In this document: one piece after another, positions 9,868 to 18,197 of the stretch
How positions within the stretch are numbered: the first letter of the stretch is position 1
How the letters are laid out: every line of letters starts with the position of its first letter
Assembly (NCBI GenBank): GCA_014654455.1
Contig: JACWCY010000001.1
Coordinates: forward strand, 53,501 to 117,500
DNA: 64,000 bases
From: Pelagibacterales bacterium SAG-MED01
Lineage (GTDB): Bacteria; Pseudomonadota; Alphaproteobacteria; Pelagibacterales; Pelagibacteraceae
Reading direction: 5' to 3'
Notes under the pieces: generated by a model
What the model was told of the DNA's origin: nothing
Databases searched by the model: none
What the model saw: the letters and a program-made list of their open reading frames with translations, nothing else
Position numbers and translations under genes: made by a program

Positions 9868-10732
9868 TAATCTTGGAGATATAATCTTTTAAATCTATTT
9901 TTCCAAAAACCCTATAAACTTTATTAGATAGATTTATATTTGTTAGAGCGGATGCATACCTTTCACCTCTTCTATAAGGTAATAATTTAATACGAGTATT
10001 AAACATTCTTGCAACATTAAGTATTGAGTAAGATTTTTTATTCAAAATACTGTAATGTCTACATTTATTTTCTTTCCAAGCTCTGATGCAAACCTCTACT
10101 GTATCTTGTATATGTGTAAATCTTCTTGACTGAGAACCCGGTCTTACTACTGGTAAAGGATTTTTTTTTTTGTAATGATCTTCAAATATTCCAACAACTG
10201 TTGCCATTTTTCCTTTAGAAATTTGGTGAGGTCCATAAACATTATAAAAATAAATAATTTCAAATTTGAAATTAAACCATTTTTTTAAATTTTCTAATAA
10301 TTCTAAGTTTTTAGCCTTTGTGAATGCATAAGGAGAAAGATCTTTATCTCTTCCCTTATTTCCCAGCGATGCTGAGGTTGCAGAATAAATTAATTTTATT
10401 TTGTTACTCAAACAGTAATTAAATACTGAATTAGATCCAACAGAATTAGATTGTAAGCAACTCTCCATTTGTAAAAAACTTTGGTATATCCTCGAAAATT
10501 CACCAAAATGAAAAATGGAATGAATATTTTTCGTATTTTTCAAAATTTTATCAATATCTTTAGTATCTCCTTTTATATATTTTACTCTTGATGATTTCTG
10601 ATGATTTTTTAATGAACCTGAAGAATAATTATCAATACTAACAAGTTTGAATTTAGTTTTTTTTAATAAATATTTAATTAGGTTGGTTCCAACAAATCCG
10701 GCTCCACCAGTTATAACAATTTTTTTTTTCAT
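9854..10732 (-). CDS. NAD-dependent epimerase/dehydratase (UDP-glucose 4-epimerase-like)
   Basis: A 292-aa extended SDR with ITGGAGFVGTNLIKYL at the N-terminus, FHFGEFSRI near residue 75, the serine in SATSASLGN and catalytic YAFTKAKN. NVYGPHQ and SRRFTHIQDTVE follow the GalE/RmlB-like layout. It is shorter than GalE, so the C-terminal substrate cap is reduced. The substrate is not clear. It is coupled to the membrane protein gene upstream by a 1-base overlap. A run of 11 T occurs in the coding region near 10161. Confidence 0.75.
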   Translation of the reverse strand: MKKKIVITGGAGFVGTNLIKYLLKKTKFKLVSIDNYSSGSLKNHQKSSRVKYIKGDTKDIDKILKNTKNIHSIFHFGEFSRIYQSFLQMESCLQSNSVGSNSVFNYCLSNKIKLIYSATSASLGNKGRDKDLSPYAFTKAKNLELLENLKKWFNFKFEIIYFYNVYGPHQISKGKMATVVGIFEDHYKKKNPLPVVRPGSQSRRFTHIQDTVEVCIRAWKENKCRHYSILNKKSYSILNVARMFNTRIKLLPYRRGERYASALTNINLSNKVYRVFGKIDLKDYISKIIKNN

Positions 10733-12366
10733 TATTTTTTAATTACTAAAAATCTAGTGTTTTTCCTCTTATTTTTATATTCTACTTTGACTAGATCATT
10801 TAATATAAAACCGTCTTTATTCAAATAGAAAAAAGCTTTATTAAATGGATTATAACCATATTGTTCAAATTCTTTATCAATCCTACTAATATTTCTACTC
10901 ACAAAAATTATTATCGCCAATAATAAAATAAGATAAATTTTTTTCTTAGTAATTAAATAATCAAACTTATACATACTTAAATAAACTGATATTGGTATAA
11001 AAAATATTAAAGCTAAAAGTGTATAACCTCCATATCTTAGCGCAGGATGGTTACAAAACCACTCAAGAGTTAAAAGTAAAATTAATAGATAAAAAAATTT
11101 ATAGTTATATTTTTTTATCTTTATCTTAGATTGATTATATCTAAATAAAAAAATAGTTATGATTGAGATTGTTGTTATAACTAAAATATTATCAGATACT
11201 TTATTAAAAAAGTAAACATCAATCCAATTACTAACCCAATTAAAATTAGCAACATAAACCTCTGGATTTTCAACTCTAAAATTAGGTCCCGCTCCACCTT
11301 TAGACCACTGTTCATACCATAAATACATTTGATCAACTTGCTGTAAAGGTATTGCCCAACTTAAATTTTCAAAACAAGTAAATCTTGCTGGGTAAATTAA
11401 ACAACCAGTATTTGTAAAAGTTGTGAAAATTGTAAATATAAAAAATATTAAAATTAAATACGTATAGTAATTTTTTAATACTAAATTTATTAAACTGTTA
11501 AGTTTGAAAAATTTACTAATTTGAAAAAACCACAATAAGAAAATTATAGAATATATAATGTAAAACGCCTTTAAAGAGATTATAATAGCGAAAAGTATTA
11601 CGAGTTTCGTATAATAATTAGTGAAATATTTTTGATCTAATTTCTTTTTTTCATAATTTAAACTTTTAAGATAAAATATGCTCATCAAAAAAATTAAAAT
11701 TAATGCAGATCTATCTGTTCCGTGCTCTGATAATCTTGGGAAAGAAGTATTAATGTAAAGAAGAGAAAGTATTGATAAAAATAAAATATGGCTGAAGTCT
11801 TTTTTAATTAGCTGGTCTCTAATTACATTGTAAAGTATAAAGTTAGAAAAACCAAAAATATATACGGCACCACCATTTAAAAAGAAGTACTTAATTCCTG
11901 GTAAATAGAATAATGAATTCAAATAAAAAATTGAGGATGGTGTTCTAAAGCCATGATTTAAATTACCTAACCCAAATACTTTTTCAAATTCTGTTAAAAT
12001 TATAGTGTATGGAAAATGATAATAAAAAAAATCATCATGATTTTTATACATTAACAACCCCATAAATATAATTGAAAAAATTATTGTTAAATCTTTTATC
12101 TCTTTTCTTCTTTTAAAAAAATTTTGACGAAAATCATAAATAAATACTATTAAACCAAGTAAAATAATTATTGAATTATGTAAATAATTGTGTGGGAAGA
12201 AAATATTGGTGAGATATGAAATAAAAATTAAAATTGCTAAACCAAGCAGACTATCAAATGAGCTTGCTTGATAATTGGAATTAATTAATGTAAATATTCT
12301 CCCGTATCCCATAATTGAATACAAAATTAAAAAATAAAAAAATAGTAAAATTAGAATCTGATCCAT
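10732..12366 (-). CDS. Large polytopic membrane protein, possible GT-C glycosyltransferase
   Basis: A 544-aa protein with a dozen or so hydrophobic helices. A loop after the early helices reads YKNHDDFFYYHFPYT, an acidic-aromatic motif of the sort used by GT-C enzymes that take polyprenyl-phosphate sugars. A large hydrophilic loop around residues 340-375 (CFENLSWAIPLQQVDQMYLWYEQW) may bind the acceptor. The family is not recognised. Its start lies 26 bases from the divergent WaaL/Wzy-like gene, so their promoters must overlap their 5' ends. Confidence 0.6.
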   Translation of the reverse strand: MDQILILLFFYFLILYSIMGYGRIFTLINSNYQASSFDSLLGLAILIFISYLTNIFFPHNYLHNSIIILLGLIVFIYDFRQNFFKRRKEIKDLTIIFSIIFMGLLMYKNHDDFFYYHFPYTIILTEFEKVFGLGNLNHGFRTPSSIFYLNSLFYLPGIKYFFLNGGAVYIFGFSNFILYNVIRDQLIKKDFSHILFLSILSLLYINTSFPRLSEHGTDRSALILIFLMSIFYLKSLNYEKKKLDQKYFTNYYTKLVILFAIIISLKAFYIIYSIIFLLWFFQISKFFKLNSLINLVLKNYYTYLILIFFIFTIFTTFTNTGCLIYPARFTCFENLSWAIPLQQVDQMYLWYEQWSKGGAGPNFRVENPEVYVANFNWVSNWIDVYFFNKVSDNILVITTISIITIFLFRYNQSKIKIKKYNYKFFYLLILLLTLEWFCNHPALRYGGYTLLALIFFIPISVYLSMYKFDYLITKKKIYLILLLAIIIFVSRNISRIDKEFEQYGYNPFNKAFFYLNKDGFILNDLVKVEYKNKRKNTRFLVIKK

Positions 12367-12392: not shown

Positions 12393-13703
12393 ATGGTAAA
12401 ATTTAATCAATTAATAAATAATGAGGGTTTAAATATCTTTGATAAGGCATCTATTTTATTTTTTAGTTTGCTTCCTATTTCTATTTTAGTTGGAAATGCA
12501 GCAATTAATTTAAATATATTAATTATAAGTATAATTTTTTTAATTTATTGTTTAAAATTTGAATTTTGGACATGGCTAAAAAGTAAAATGTTTTTAGCTT
12601 TATTTTTCCTGTACATTTTTTTAATCATCAATTCTACTTATTCGCTTTTTTTTATAGTTGAAAATGAGTCTGGGGGATTAGTAAGATCTATTTTATTTAT
12701 CAAGTTTATTTTATTAGTATTTGCTTTCTCAACATTAGTTGAAAAAGAGAAGGTTCTATCTAAAATCAAAATTAATTGGTTAATCATTATATTGGTAGTA
12801 ATTATTGATATTTTTTATGAAAAATATTTTGGCAAAAATATTTTTGGATTTAAAAGTCCTAATCCTCAAAGAATAATATCTTTTTTTAAAGATGAAATGG
12901 TTGTTGGTGGTTACATTCTTTGCTTTGGATTTGCTACAGTTACATATTTCTTAAGCCAAAGTAAAAAAAATAAATCAATATTGTTTTTTTTGATTATTTT
13001 TTTGATAATTCCAGTTTCAATTTTTCTGACTGGTGAAAGATCTAATTTTATAAAATCTGCTTTTTTATTTATTGTAATTGGAATATTTTTAAATAATAAA
13101 AATTTTTATATTAGTTTTAAATATTTAATTCCGGTATTTTTTTTAATAATTTCATCATTTGTTTATTTAAATGATGATATTAAAGATAGGTACTCTGTAT
13201 TTTTTAAAAGAATTTTAGTAGTTGAAGGAAACAAAACTTTTTTAGAAAAATTTGAAAATATTAAATATTTTGCTCATTTTGATACAGCAATAAAGATTTT
13301 TAAAAATCATCCAATTACTGGAGTGGGTAATAAAAACTTTAGGAAAGAATGTTCAAAAGAAATTTATTTTGAAGAAAAAATAAAATTTTCTGCTCAGAGA
13401 TGTAGTACTCACCCACATCAAATTCATTTTGAAATACTTTCTGAATTAGGAATTATAGGATATTTTTTTATTACTTCCTTCATGATTGTTTTTTTATTTA
13501 AAAATATTAGGATATTCTTAAATACTCACAATATAAGTCATTTAAGCAATATTACTTATATTCTTCTTTTTTTTACGCCGTTACTACCTGGAGCGGGAAT
13601 ATTTAGTACTTTCAATGGTTCTATTTTTTGGATAATTTTTTCTCTAACATATCTTACCTATAAAAAAGAATATTTAAATTTTAGAAAAAAAATATTAAAA
13701 TAA
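12393..13703 (+). CDS. O-antigen ligase/polymerase family membrane protein (WaaL/Wzy-like)
   Basis: A 436-aa protein with about ten transmembrane helices. Near residues 335-360 a periplasmic stretch THPHQIHFEILSELGIIGYF matches the Wzy_C/WaaL signature, where the histidine acts in glycan transfer, and GVGNKNFRKEC precedes it as in ligases. It would join finished polysaccharide to lipid A core or polymerise repeat units in the periplasm. It is the first gene of a five-gene forward run that includes the Tat microprotein and the GMC oxidoreductase. Confidence 0.85.
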   Translation: MVKFNQLINNEGLNIFDKASILFFSLLPISILVGNAAINLNILIISIIFLIYCLKFEFWTWLKSKMFLALFFLYIFLIINSTYSLFFIVENESGGLVRSILFIKFILLVFAFSTLVEKEKVLSKIKINWLIIILVVIIDIFYEKYFGKNIFGFKSPNPQRIISFFKDEMVVGGYILCFGFATVTYFLSQSKKNKSILFFLIIFLIIPVSIFLTGERSNFIKSAFLFIVIGIFLNNKNFYISFKYLIPVFFLIISSFVYLNDDIKDRYSVFFKRILVVEGNKTFLEKFENIKYFAHFDTAIKIFKNHPITGVGNKNFRKECSKEIYFEEKIKFSAQRCSTHPHQIHFEILSELGIIGYFFITSFMIVFLFKNIRIFLNTHNISHLSNITYILLFFTPLLPGAGIFSTFNGSIFWIIFSLTYLTYKKEYLNFRKKILK

Positions 13704-13711
13704 GATTAATT

Positions 13712-13873
13712 ATGAAAAAATTTAGAAGAAATTTTATTAAATTATTTTTTTTAAGTATTTTTTCATTTATATACTTTGGCAAATCAAATGCCAAAGAAAA
13801 TTTCAATACAAATCTTAGAATAAAAAAAAAAAAACTAAAAAAATTTTATTGGTATTTAAATGAAAATGATTAA
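13712..13873 (+). CDS. 53-aa Tat-signal microprotein coupled to GMC oxidoreductase
   Basis: Not in the ORF track. ATG at 13712 opens 53 codons: MKKFRRNFIKLFFLSIFSFIYF, then a SNAKE-like signal peptidase site, then about 25 residues rich in lysine. FRRNFIK fits the twin-arginine consensus (RRxFxK) and is followed by a hydrophobic core. Its TAA overlaps the ATG of the GMC oxidoreductase (TAATG), so translation is probably coupled. It could escort the signal-less oxidoreductase through the Tat pore, as small Tat-bearing subunits do for gluconate dehydrogenase-type enzymes. A run of 13 A lies in its 3' part. Confidence 0.6.
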   Translation: MKKFRRNFIKLFFLSIFSFIYFGKSNAKENFNTNLRIKKKKLKKFYWYLNEND

Positions 13874-15285
13874 TGATTTACAAAAATATATTAGATACTA
13901 AAGATAAAAATTTTCCAATTGTTATTATTGGCAGTGGTCCGGCTGGAATTACACTTGCAACAAAATTAGCAAAAAAAAAAATTAATAGTTTAATAATTGA
14001 AGCTGGAGATGAAGAGTATAGTGATAGTTCCCAACAAAATTATAGATCCAAGGTGATAGGTGATGAAATTGATGACTTAAGATATAGCAGATTAAGACAG
14101 CTTGGAGGTACTAGTGGACACTGGGGAGGATGGTGTAAGCCCATTGAAAAATGGAATATTGAAAAATGGGGTCTTAATTACAAAGAAATTTCAAATTATG
14201 AGAATGAAACCTGTAAAATTTTAGATATAAAAAATAAATTCAAAAAAGCTAGATTAGACAAATACTTTAATCAGATTGAATTTAGATATTCAAAAGTAAG
14301 ATTTGCAGAAAAATATAAAGATGAAATTAAAAAATCAAAATATATTCATTTAGTATTAAATTCTCAAGTGACACATTTTGAAGGTAACGATCAAATTATA
14401 AATAAAGTAGTTGTCGCCCAAAATAAAAAAATTCATAAAATTAAATCTAATTTTTTTGTTTTATGCAGTGGTGGAATTGAAAACTCAAGAATATTGTTAT
14501 GGACAAACCAAAAAAGTAAAGGATTACTTAATAAAGATTTGCCGATTGGTAAATTCTGGATGACTCATCCGTGGATACTTGGGGGTGTTGGTTTTTTATA
14601 TAAGTCAAAAATAAAAGAAATATTAAAAGATAACTTTATAAATTATGACGGACCTATTCACATTTCTGCTAGCAAAGATTTAATTAATGAAAAAAAGATA
14701 ATGAGTGGTGCAATTTATATGAATGCCAAAGAGGATACCAAATTATACAAAGAGATAGTTAAAGATTTTTTATGTGTGGCACCTGATTATGGTAAAAAAA
14801 TTGCAAGAAGTATTTTTGATAAAGATTTAAAATGTGGAGATATATTCATGAATCTTGAAGAACTTCCAGATGAAAAAAATAGAATTGAATTAGATAAAAA
14901 TGAATTAGATAACAATGGTATTCCAATTACCAATCTTTACTACAAACAATCAATTGATACATTAATTTCAATGAAAACTATTTTGCAAGAATTGGGAAAT
15001 TTTTTTGTTAAAAAAGATATAGGAAGAGTTGCTATTAAAGAAAATATTGAAAATTTGACAAATTACGAACACTTAGGGGTTCATCATCATATGGGTGGAA
15101 CAAGAATAGGAGATAATCCAAAAATCTCTGTTGTTGATAAAAATTTAAAAGTTCACTCTACTAAAAATTTATATGTTTGTGGAAGTTCAACGTTTTCAAC
15201 AGGAGGATATTCAAACCCAACCTACACTATAGTTCAATTAGCTCTAAGATTATCTGATCACATTGATAAAAAGATAAATTTATAA
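13873..15285 (+). CDS. GMC-family FAD-dependent oxidoreductase
   Basis: A 470-aa flavoprotein. The FAD-binding VVIIGSGPAGITLATKLA-type loop is near residues 17-33, followed by IIEAGDEEY; RQLGGTSGHWGGW is the GMC signature; the C-terminal domain has YEHLGVHHHMGGTRIGDN with the catalytic His pair region and YVCGSSTFSTGGYSNPTYT. GMC enzymes oxidise alcohols of sugars or lipids. It has no signal peptide of its own, but a Tat-signal microprotein gene overlaps its start. In a glycan operon it may oxidise a sugar hydroxyl on a lipid-linked intermediate; the substrate is unknown. Confidence 0.85.
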   Translation: MIYKNILDTKDKNFPIVIIGSGPAGITLATKLAKKKINSLIIEAGDEEYSDSSQQNYRSKVIGDEIDDLRYSRLRQLGGTSGHWGGWCKPIEKWNIEKWGLNYKEISNYENETCKILDIKNKFKKARLDKYFNQIEFRYSKVRFAEKYKDEIKKSKYIHLVLNSQVTHFEGNDQIINKVVVAQNKKIHKIKSNFFVLCSGGIENSRILLWTNQKSKGLLNKDLPIGKFWMTHPWILGGVGFLYKSKIKEILKDNFINYDGPIHISASKDLINEKKIMSGAIYMNAKEDTKLYKEIVKDFLCVAPDYGKKIARSIFDKDLKCGDIFMNLEELPDEKNRIELDKNELDNNGIPITNLYYKQSIDTLISMKTILQELGNFFVKKDIGRVAIKENIENLTNYEHLGVHHHMGGTRIGDNPKISVVDKNLKVHSTKNLYVCGSSTFSTGGYSNPTYTIVQLALRLSDHIDKKINL

Positions 15286-15309: not shown

Positions 15310-16023
15310 ATGAATAAATTAAAGAATAATTTTGTACAAAATTCTATTCTAATCATTTTAGTTTTATTTTTTTTTTCAACAAAAACCAATTTTGTAAAAA
15401 ATATTCATTTTATTATTTCAAAAAATTATGATGAACGAATAAATAGTGTTTACGGTTTTTGTTCACCTGAAGGTATAGGATATTTACGTAGCATTAAAAA
15501 AAAATATAATTTTAAAGAAAATCCTAAAATTATTAATTATGAACATGTGCCTCAAAATAATTGGGCAATTCTAAACACAAAGAACATAGGTAAAGCTTCA
15601 AACAAATTAATATTTTTAAATTATCCGGGACCTCAGTATGAGATTAATCTCAACAAATCAAACAAAGGTATATATGAGTTAAAAGATGTAGAATTTATAG
15701 CTCAAAATTTTGAAACTATCTCAAAAATAAAAGTTTCAGATTATGCTAATTTAACAAACGAAGAAATTAAATTAGAAATATTATCAATAGATAAATCGCT
15801 TAATAAGAAAATAATTGAAAATATTGAATTAAGAAAAAATAAAAAAGAGAACCTAAATTTAATTTTCAAAAATTTAAATCTTTCTGAAAGTAAGCTATTT
15901 TTCAAACTTCATAATTCAAATGAAGTTAAAAGTATAGATATAACCCTACAAAATAAGTATGACTTAAATAATTTCAAAATTATAAATGAGTTTGAAAATT
16001 GCTACCTTGTTGAAAAATTATGA
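15310..16023 (+). CDS. Hypothetical membrane-anchored protein
   Basis: A 237-aa protein with one N-terminal hydrophobic helix (ILIILVLFFFS, residues 14-24) and a soluble, probably periplasmic part of beta-rich character. Motifs such as YGFCSPEGIGYLRSIKKKY are not familiar to me. It overlaps the following membrane protein gene by 4 bases, so the two are probably a pair. No function is proposed beyond service to that partner. Confidence 0.6.
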   Translation: MNKLKNNFVQNSILIILVLFFFSTKTNFVKNIHFIISKNYDERINSVYGFCSPEGIGYLRSIKKKYNFKENPKIINYEHVPQNNWAILNTKNIGKASNKLIFLNYPGPQYEINLNKSNKGIYELKDVEFIAQNFETISKIKVSDYANLTNEEIKLEILSIDKSLNKKIIENIELRKNKKENLNLIFKNLNLSESKLFFKLHNSNEVKSIDITLQNKYDLNNFKIINEFENCYLVEKL

Positions 16024-17339
16024 TTGAAATTACAAATATAATTTTAGCCTTATTTTCATTTTTGTTAATTACATTTGTACCATTAAATATATTTAACACT
16101 AAAAATAAGATTTTTAATGATTGTTCATCGTTAGATTTAGCTTCATTTAATTTGATTATTAATTGTAATATTTTGTTAATTTTTTCACTTCTTCCTCTTG
16201 CAATGGAAAATTATAATTACATTTATTACACTTTCTTAATACTCTTTTTTTTCTATTCTTATTTTCTAAAATTTAAGAATTTAAAAGATTTTAAAAGTAT
16301 GACTTTAAATATAATATTTTTAGCATCTATTTTTTTTATTATTTCTATTCATGTTACTGCAAAATTAAAACTTGGATGGGATGCCCAATTTTTTTACTTT
16401 ATTAAATCATTGTTTTTTATTGAAGGACAAAATTTTTATGATTTAAATAAATTTCAATATGGTTTTCATCCCCATTTAGGATCTTTTTTTTGGTCATTTT
16501 ATTGGAAGTTAATTAATATTAATTATGAGTATATTGGAAGATTATTCTATGTTTTTGTCTCTTGTTTTTCTTTATTTTATATTTGTAAAAAAAATTTTGA
16601 AGATAATGACTTCAGAATAATAATATTTTTTTTGTTGGTATTGTTTTTTTATGAATATGAGAGATTTTCTGGACTTCAAGAAATTCTTATATTCTCATTC
16701 TTAATTTTATTATCAAAATATTTTATGAAAATATTAAATACAAAAAATATTTTATATTCAATTTTTTTTGTAATCACATGCAATCTTATCTTGTGGATAA
16801 AAGCTGAAGGAGTAGTTTATTTATCTATCATGTTTATAATTTTTAATTTGAGTAATAAAATTAATATTAAACAAAAAATGTATATGAGTTTATGTTTTGT
16901 ATTAATCGTTTTATTTAAATATATGGTTTATGAGATTTCACAAAATGTGATGCTAGATAAAACTGGACACCCATATGATTTAAATTATTTTGAAATCTTA
17001 AATCTAAATTTTATAATTTTTAAATTAAAACTCATCATACCGTATCTGATTTATTATTTATTAAATAATATATTTTTAATTTTTGGAATAATTTTAATAA
17101 TTTACAATAAATATTATAAGATAAATATAGCGTATAATAACTCTATGTTATTATATTTATTTTTAAGCACTTGTTTTATTTTTAGTGCTTACCTATTCAG
17201 AGATATGGAAATTGAATATTCAATTAAAACTACTATGGAAAGAATTACATTTACAATATCTGGTTTTTATTTAATGACTTTAGTAAACTTTTTAACAGAT
17301 ATCGTAGATAAGTTTAAAAAAATAAAGTCAAAATCATAA
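16020..17339 (+). CDS. Polytopic membrane protein, probable GT-C glycosyltransferase
   Basis: A 439-aa protein with about eleven helices. The first large periplasmic loop carries KLGWDAQFFYFIKSLFF and then YGFHPHLGSFFWSFYW, a D-plus-aromatic arrangement close to the catalytic loop of GT39/ArnT-like GT-C enzymes. It would move a sugar from a polyprenyl phosphate to a glycan in the periplasm. It is coupled to the anchored protein upstream and shares its last 6 bases with the convergent UbiA-like gene. Confidence 0.65.
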   Translation: MIEITNIILALFSFLLITFVPLNIFNTKNKIFNDCSSLDLASFNLIINCNILLIFSLLPLAMENYNYIYYTFLILFFFYSYFLKFKNLKDFKSMTLNIIFLASIFFIISIHVTAKLKLGWDAQFFYFIKSLFFIEGQNFYDLNKFQYGFHPHLGSFFWSFYWKLININYEYIGRLFYVFVSCFSLFYICKKNFEDNDFRIIIFFLLVLFFYEYERFSGLQEILIFSFLILLSKYFMKILNTKNILYSIFFVITCNLILWIKAEGVVYLSIMFIIFNLSNKINIKQKMYMSLCFVLIVLFKYMVYEISQNVMLDKTGHPYDLNYFEILNLNFIIFKLKLIIPYLIYYLLNNIFLIFGIILIIYNKYYKINIAYNNSMLLYLFLSTCFIFSAYLFRDMEIEYSIKTTMERITFTISGFYLMTLVNFLTDIVDKFKKIKSKS

Positions 17340-18197
17340 AGCATAAATACAATATAGACTGTAAAAACCAAAGGATATCACTAATAATATTAAAATTTTA
17401 TCTTTAGTGAATACTTCTACAGGATCAGAAAAATTTTTTTTAAATAATGAGAATAAATATCTTGCTGTACCAAGGGCTACTATCACAAAGCTTAAATAAA
17501 AATTTTCTCCAAATTTATCTATACTTTTTTCGGATATAGAGAATACAAAGAATAGGATTATTAATATTGAAGAATTAATTAATATAAACTTTTGAAGTTC
17601 ATTTGTATTATAGAGAGATACAAAATTTTTGTTAATTTTATTATTATTTAAATCCATAAGTCTTTTTCCAAACCCAACAGTTAGTACTGCAAAAAAAATA
17701 ATTGATACTAACCATTTAGAAAAATCCAAATTAAAATAATAAATTGGTGCTAACACCCTAATAATATAAAATAATGATAAAACAACTACATCAATTATAT
17801 AAATTTTTTTAAGAAAGATTGAATAAGATAAATTTAATAAAAAATATGTTATAAAAACCATATTTAAAACAAAGTTATTTTTATAAAATAAAAAACTTAG
17901 TAGAGTTAAGAATAATATTAAACAAAGTATAATTGCATTTTTCTTTGAAATCTCACCAGATGCTATGGGTCTTTTTTTTTTTATTAAATCTTTTTTATCC
18001 TCATTGCAATCTATAAGATCATTTAGAATATAAATAGTACTTGATGAAAAAGAGAGAAGAAAAAATATATCTATTAAACCAATTAAAACTTCTTCTGAAA
18101 GATATAAAGAAGAAAAAAAAATTGGAACTAAAATTAATATATTCTTAATCCAATTTTTAACTTTAATTGTTCGAGCAATTGTAGATATATAATTCAT
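17334..18197 (-). CDS. UbiA-family prenyltransferase, polyprenyl-phosphate phosphoribosyltransferase-like
   Basis: A 287-aa membrane protein with about eight helices. It has the first aspartate motif YILNDLIDCNEDK, followed by KKKRPIASGEISK, and the early RTIKVKNWIKNILI; both are typical of the UbiA subgroup that includes decaprenyl-phosphate phosphoribosyltransferase. The second motif, near GFGKRLMDLNNN, is present. It would attach a phosphoribosyl (or similar) group to polyprenyl phosphate. It ends a three-gene reverse operon with two epimerases and may supply donors to the GT-C proteins nearby. Confidence 0.78.
   Translation of the reverse strand: MNYISTIARTIKVKNWIKNILILVPIFFSSLYLSEEVLIGLIDIFFLLSFSSSTIYILNDLIDCNEDKKDLIKKKRPIASGEISKKNAIILCLILFLTLLSFLFYKNNFVLNMVFITYFLLNLSYSIFLKKIYIIDVVVLSLFYIIRVLAPIYYFNLDFSKWLVSIIFFAVLTVGFGKRLMDLNNNKINKNFVSLYNTNELQKFILINSSILIILFFVFSISEKSIDKFGENFYLSFVIVALGTARYLFSLFKKNFSDPVEVFTKDKILILLVISFGFYSLYCIYAL

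Follow-up and report, generated by a model that had tools for sequence, protein, structure and literature searches.

The 53-amino-acid protein encoded immediately ahead of a GMC flavoenzyme in the 64-kb window (the whole stretch of DNA that was analysed, from a 1.17-Mb SAR11-like genome) is very probably a minimal Tat hitchhiker, or carrier subunit, which would dock on the adjoining enzyme and be exported with it to the periplasm. This reading is based on the reality and conservation of the small gene, the Tat consensus of its family, the constant presence beside it of a GMC enzyme devoid of a signal peptide, the likeness of its C-terminal end to that of larger small subunits, and TatC, which is encoded in the genome. 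The features on which the original prediction was founded, namely a 53-codon gene with the twin-arginine motif FRRNFIK, a hydrophobic core and a TAATG overlap with the start codon of the GMC gene, were all seen in the sequence (Table 1). The W-x-L-x3-D end of the protein had been overlooked; judged by sequence, it appears to be a conserved functional end of the docking-motif type.

Table 1. Features of the small gene, its GMC partner and their neighbours (positions in the window)
Feature	Position	Strand	Remarks
Wzy_C (O-antigen ligase-like) membrane protein, upstream neighbour	12393..13703	+	Pfam match
Tat microprotein gene, proposed hitchhiker/carrier subunit	13712..13873	+	53 aa, MKKFRRNFIKLFFLSIFSFIYFGKSNAKENFNTNLRIKKKKLKKFYWYLNEND; ORF reading, homologs and dN/dS
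FRRNFIK twin-arginine motif, residues 4-10	13721..13741	+	Matches family consensus [SNT]-R-R-[NK]-F-[LI]-K
Signal hydrophobic core, residues 11-23	13742..13780	+	LFFLSIFSFIYFG; translated ORF
Basic stretch RIKKKKLKKFY, residues 36-46	13817..13849	+	Between hydrophobic core and C-terminal motif
WYLNEND, the C-terminal W-x-L-x3-D motif	13850..13870	+	Hairpin or peptide proposed to dock on the GMC enzyme
TAATG stop/start overlap, translational coupling	13871..13875	+	TAA of the small gene overlaps the GMC ATG
GMC flavoenzyme, 470 aa, partner, without own signal peptide	13873..15285	+	GMC_oxred_C match and FAD motif
237-aa protein, near the pair in some SAR11 relatives	15310..16023	+	No family match
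439-aa protein, GT-C-like according to the original prediction	16020..17339	+	No family match; overlaps the 237-aa gene

The partner enzyme, which may be an oxidase or a dehydrogenase of sugars or alcohols, was identified by its match to GMC_oxred_C (PF05199; 68.4 bits, cut-off 24.6) and by an N-terminal GxGxxG FAD motif, and the GSGPAG, HHMGGT and NPT regions are all conserved. GSGPAG lies only about 15-20 residues from the start of the protein, so that the enzyme possesses no export signal of its own, as had been claimed. The best solved fold matches are the large subunit of fructose dehydrogenase and, slightly lower, the alpha subunit of Burkholderia FAD-glucose dehydrogenase (FAD-GDH), which are also the top solved relatives by sequence. 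Unlike the catalytic subunits of the DET-type FAD dehydrogenases, in which the 3Fe-4S cluster of BcGDH, for example, is bound by Cys212/213/218/222 (PMC6719666), the window enzyme carries no clustered Cys motif for such a centre among its six cysteines (88, 114, 198, 301, 321 and 436). Pyranose oxidases and C-glycoside oxidases share its fold, GMC_oxred_C domain and HHMGGT...NPT active-site region, but their identity to it in structural alignments is only 11-18% and a small Tat partner does not belong to their definition. In the GMC tree, a branch with an SH-aLRT support of 100% separates 41 enzymes associated with the short protein, and four without it, from the GMCs associated with longer small proteins, described below.

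A search of 247 Pelagibacteraceae genomes yielded 12 close GMC homologs, that of the window included. In 11 of them an ORF of 42-56 codons precedes the GMC gene, its stop codon overlapping the GMC start or lying no more than 3 nt from it; the more remote GMCs inspected in that search have no such ORF beside them. The sole exception (L143, identical to L011) has its GMC at 772-2178 on a long branch (1.1) and is perhaps a decaying or re-purposed copy. Alignment of the close SAR11 small proteins displays invariant columns that include R6, K10, W47 and D53. The dN/dS ratio of the small gene, computable in 8 of 12 close pairs, ranges from 0.09 to 0.73 and is mostly 0.1-0.4, and the gene is under purifying selection.

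For the wider scan the GMC alignment was used as query with one genome per species; a single GMC protein searched against genome contigs detected no related loci. With the 53-aa protein as the only query, the SAR11 genomes returned mostly signal-peptide noise, whereas anchoring on the GMC gene succeeded. The resulting 79 loci are distributed amongst Pelagibacteraceae, other Alphaproteobacteria, Burkholderiales, Halomonadaceae, Pseudomonas, SAR86, Litoricola, Nitrospira and Myxococcales, and the small gene is found in Pseudomonadota, Nitrospirota and Myxococcota. A matching ORF of about 39-100 codons, mostly 39-60, lies directly upstream of the GMC in 71 of the 79 loci when defined strictly as ending in W-x-[LIVMF]-x3-[DENS]. 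L177, one of the eight loci outside this pattern, possesses the motif with a longer end, and the L148 locus begins inside the GMC. Tat-like small ORFs precede the GMC in L168 (5735-5959) and L180 (5692-5958), with the divergent ends YRNGVITKV and YRDGVITRV instead of GWxLxxxD. L157 is a tandem repeat with the motif in its first copy. The small gene is absent beside the GMC in L133 and L135, which represent one Aliiroseovarius GMC type, as well as in L143; in L135 a small gene with the motif is located elsewhere. Among 1817 control ORFs of similar size from the same loci, none possesses the end motif. The original prediction had proposed that the same small frame be sought before the GMC genes of other SAR11 and marine bacterial glycan loci, and its recurrence in 11 of 12 close and 71 of 79 wider loci, together with the controls and the purifying selection, led to the rejection of a chance frame. 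The small ORF is a real gene.

Sixty-one pairs were curated. The second position of the twin-arginine motif is R in all 61 small proteins and the first is R in 52 and K in 9, so that motif and frame, whose loss in relatives would have counted against the original prediction, are retained over several phyla. The preceding position is mostly S, N or T, and F at +2 (40 members), L or I at +3 (38) and K at +4 (28) complete a family consensus [SNT]-R-R-x-F-[LI]-K, followed by a hydrophobic core and a basic stretch. SRRxFLK is the established rule of Tat signals. The N-terminus of a profile built from 45 members matches the signal of an MsrP-like Tat protein, and the same profile, compared with the PDB, finds a weak match to SufI (E 0.18); the MsrP-like protein and SufI are both known Tat-type substrates. 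Over the 14 residues preceding the conserved W the mean net charge of the 61 members is +3.5, and such a basic stretch would suit both Sec avoidance and Tat.

An AxA-like cleavage site is found in only 27 of the 61 members, and cleavage of the signal is therefore uncertain. The original prediction envisaged that little more than a lysine-rich remnant would be left after cleavage; the lysine-rich tail is indeed present, but it ends in the conserved WYLNEND and its release is not assured. Some of the small proteins may stay in place as N-terminal membrane anchors. The protein might then act mainly as a membrane anchor or assembly factor that holds the pair at the membrane and possibly aids FAD insertion or electron transfer to quinone, with transport secondary or absent. 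The many members with no AxA-like site could remain signal-anchors, and the gamma subunit of BcGDH also stabilises its alpha subunit (PMC6719666). A simple anchor, however, would not be expected to keep a canonical Tat motif with F at +2, L at +3 and K at +4, nor is it favoured by the basic stretch after the core, and this alternative is considered unlikely.

At the C-terminal end, W and D are found in all 61 members and L in 58. The W was fixed by the search pattern, while at the D position E, N and S were allowed as well, yet D occurs throughout. Outside SAR11 the end is typically IKVKNGW[ILV]LRxxD; in SAR11 members the residues preceding W are mostly basic or aromatic. In L142 the two genes are in frame with the stop codon alone between them, and this natural read-through was folded as a single chain. 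With a well-aligned set the model reached a mean pLDDT of 90.9 and placed the motif in a strand at residues 41-46 adjoining a strand at 33-38 (pLDDT about 72-74). A read-through model of L145 shows strands IKVK and WVLR about an NG turn at a pLDDT of about 61, a low value that says little because the short rows of its alignment were misplaced by MAFFT. The W-x-L-x3-D end is thus predicted, with moderate confidence (pLDDT about 61-74), to fold as a beta hairpin.

GMCs just outside the clade possess, in the equivalent position, Tat proteins of 113-136 amino acids ending in VVIDGW[ILV]LAR[ST]EA[RQ]LCAL. These are found in L087, L088, L090, L094, L103, L184 and L186, with the gene upstream or downstream of the GMC. 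Like the short proteins they combine a Tat signal, a GMC neighbour and an end of the [VI]-[ND]-G-W-[ILV]-[LM]-x3-[ED] type, in which W, L at +2 and the acid at +6 align with the short motif; they differ by an added middle region of about 70 amino acids and by the C-terminal LCAL extension. A PDB search with the long proteins gave chance matches to a repeat protein only.

The close spacing of the two genes could suggest that the small frame is translated only as a leader, or as a device that couples and sets the translation of the GMC gene, its peptide having no function of its own: in nearly all loci it overlaps the start of the GMC gene or comes close to it, and the stop/start gap is -1 in 27 and -4 in 12 of the 61 curated pairs. 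Such a device would not explain why W, D and the twin arginines are kept at the protein level over several phyla under purifying selection, and it is contradicted by L075, L080, L091, L099 and L186, in which the small gene, in its long or its short form, is located downstream of the GMC. This explanation was rejected as highly improbable; the downstream position in several loci indicates a partner subunit rather than a pure leader. Equally little credence can be given to a small protein that crosses Tat or Sec alone, performs a separate envelope function and shares nothing but the operon with the enzyme. The AxA sites of some members would allow it, as would the indirect nature of the case for interaction with the enzyme, but strict co-occurrence with one GMC clade amid unrelated neighbourhoods, and the resemblance of the end motif to that of the larger small subunits of sister GMCs, make it very doubtful.

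A Tat small protein beside a signal-less GMC is also the arrangement of the Burkholderia FAD-GDH gamma subunit (6A2U/8GRJ) and the small subunit of Gluconobacter fructose dehydrogenase (7W2J/8JEJ), and in both complexes the small subunit is regarded as a Tat hitchhiker. Classical hitchhiker small subunits are about 150-170 amino acids long. The members of the short family, in contrast to these two subunits, are mostly of 39-60 amino acids and contain no globular domain. Gluconate_2-dh3 (PF13618) has no match in the genome, in the 53-aa protein or in 45 relatives. In BcGDH gamma, a C-terminal hydrophobic loop that includes Trp159 packs on the alpha catalytic subunit (PMC6719666). TIGR02811 (formate_TAT, 66 positions) likewise describes a very small Tat-signal protein beside an oxidoreductase. 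One family member matches it weakly (E 0.0055), and a similar match reaches 15 bits against a curated cut-off of 48.45; the likeness is confined to the signal, the partner of TIGR02811 is a formate dehydrogenase, and the match shows no W-x-L-x3-D end. The small protein gave no informative match in Pfam, NCBIfam or the PDB, neither Pfam nor NCBIfam holds a model for the short or the long form, annotated records name these proteins hypothetical, and no earlier description of either family was found in the open-access literature. Tat hitchhikers of GMC enzymes are known as a kind; what appears to be new is that one is pared down to a signal with a docking motif, and that it is so widely spread.

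The pair had also been assigned to a glycan operon. This holds for the SAR11 relatives, whose pairs are most often accompanied by glycosyltransferase 2, NAD-epimerases, DegT aminotransferases, methyltransferases and Wzy_C. The Wzy_C gene before the pair is kept in the close relatives L105, L107 and L108, and the 237-aa gene is found near the pair in L104, L105 and others. Outside SAR11 the neighbours are mixed housekeeping genes; a general glycan link was rejected, and the pair is regarded as a portable unit since it has no glycan context there. Several other neighbours were recorded. On the minus strand of the window, 10732-12366 encodes a membrane protein of 544 amino acids that resembles the LIC_10190 family (E 9.5e-26, slightly under the cut-off); in L105, L107 and L109, relatives of this protein are encoded near the pair. 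A UbiA-family gene (decaprenyl-phosphate phosphoribosyltransferase-like) lies near the pair in the window (17334-18197, minus strand), L134 (2467-3804) and L159 (2740-4197), and in L140 (4566-7588), L158 (7379-10398) and L182 (9120-12729), from marine bacteria, DprE1-, DprE2- and UbiA-like genes adjoin it as a cassette of the polyprenyl-phosphoryl-arabinose type. These genes hint at polyprenyl-phosphate-pentose chemistry in some lineages, in numbers too small for a claim. A Paracoccus plasmid GMC within a polysaccharide locus (L187, 3947-6619) is annotated at about 890 amino acids, much longer than its relatives, and may be a fusion.

The hitchhiker interpretation is supported at the level of sequence, as the frame and the twin arginines are kept and the small gene stays beside signal-less GMCs. 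Some observations stand against it: nine of the 61 members carry KR for RR, the gene is missing beside the GMCs of L143, L133 and L135, and the gluconate_2-dh3 domain is absent. In the proposed working, the small protein and the GMC would be made together through their overlapping stop and start codons, and the enzyme would fold with its FAD in the cytoplasm. The short C-terminal W-x-L-x3-D hairpin would then dock on the folded enzyme, and the pair would be exported via Tat, leaving the enzyme periplasmic or membrane-bound. There is a reasonable, better than even case that the whole GMC clade, in at least three phyla, is exported in trans in this manner by a separate signal polypeptide, often of about 40-60 residues, with a docking hairpin of about 14 residues.

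RRxFLK followed by a GWxLxxxD end beside a GMC gene provides a rule for spotting missed genes of this family. If the proposal is true, a folded cofactor enzyme can be exported via Tat with no more than a signal plus a short docking motif, both carried by a separate polypeptide. The pair would then rank with the smallest Tat hitchhiker systems in nature, and the small protein would be a portable export tag, a compact natural one for Tat. A clade of GMC enzymes otherwise read as plain cytosolic oxidoreductases would be placed in the periplasm, including those in the surface-glycan loci of SAR11.
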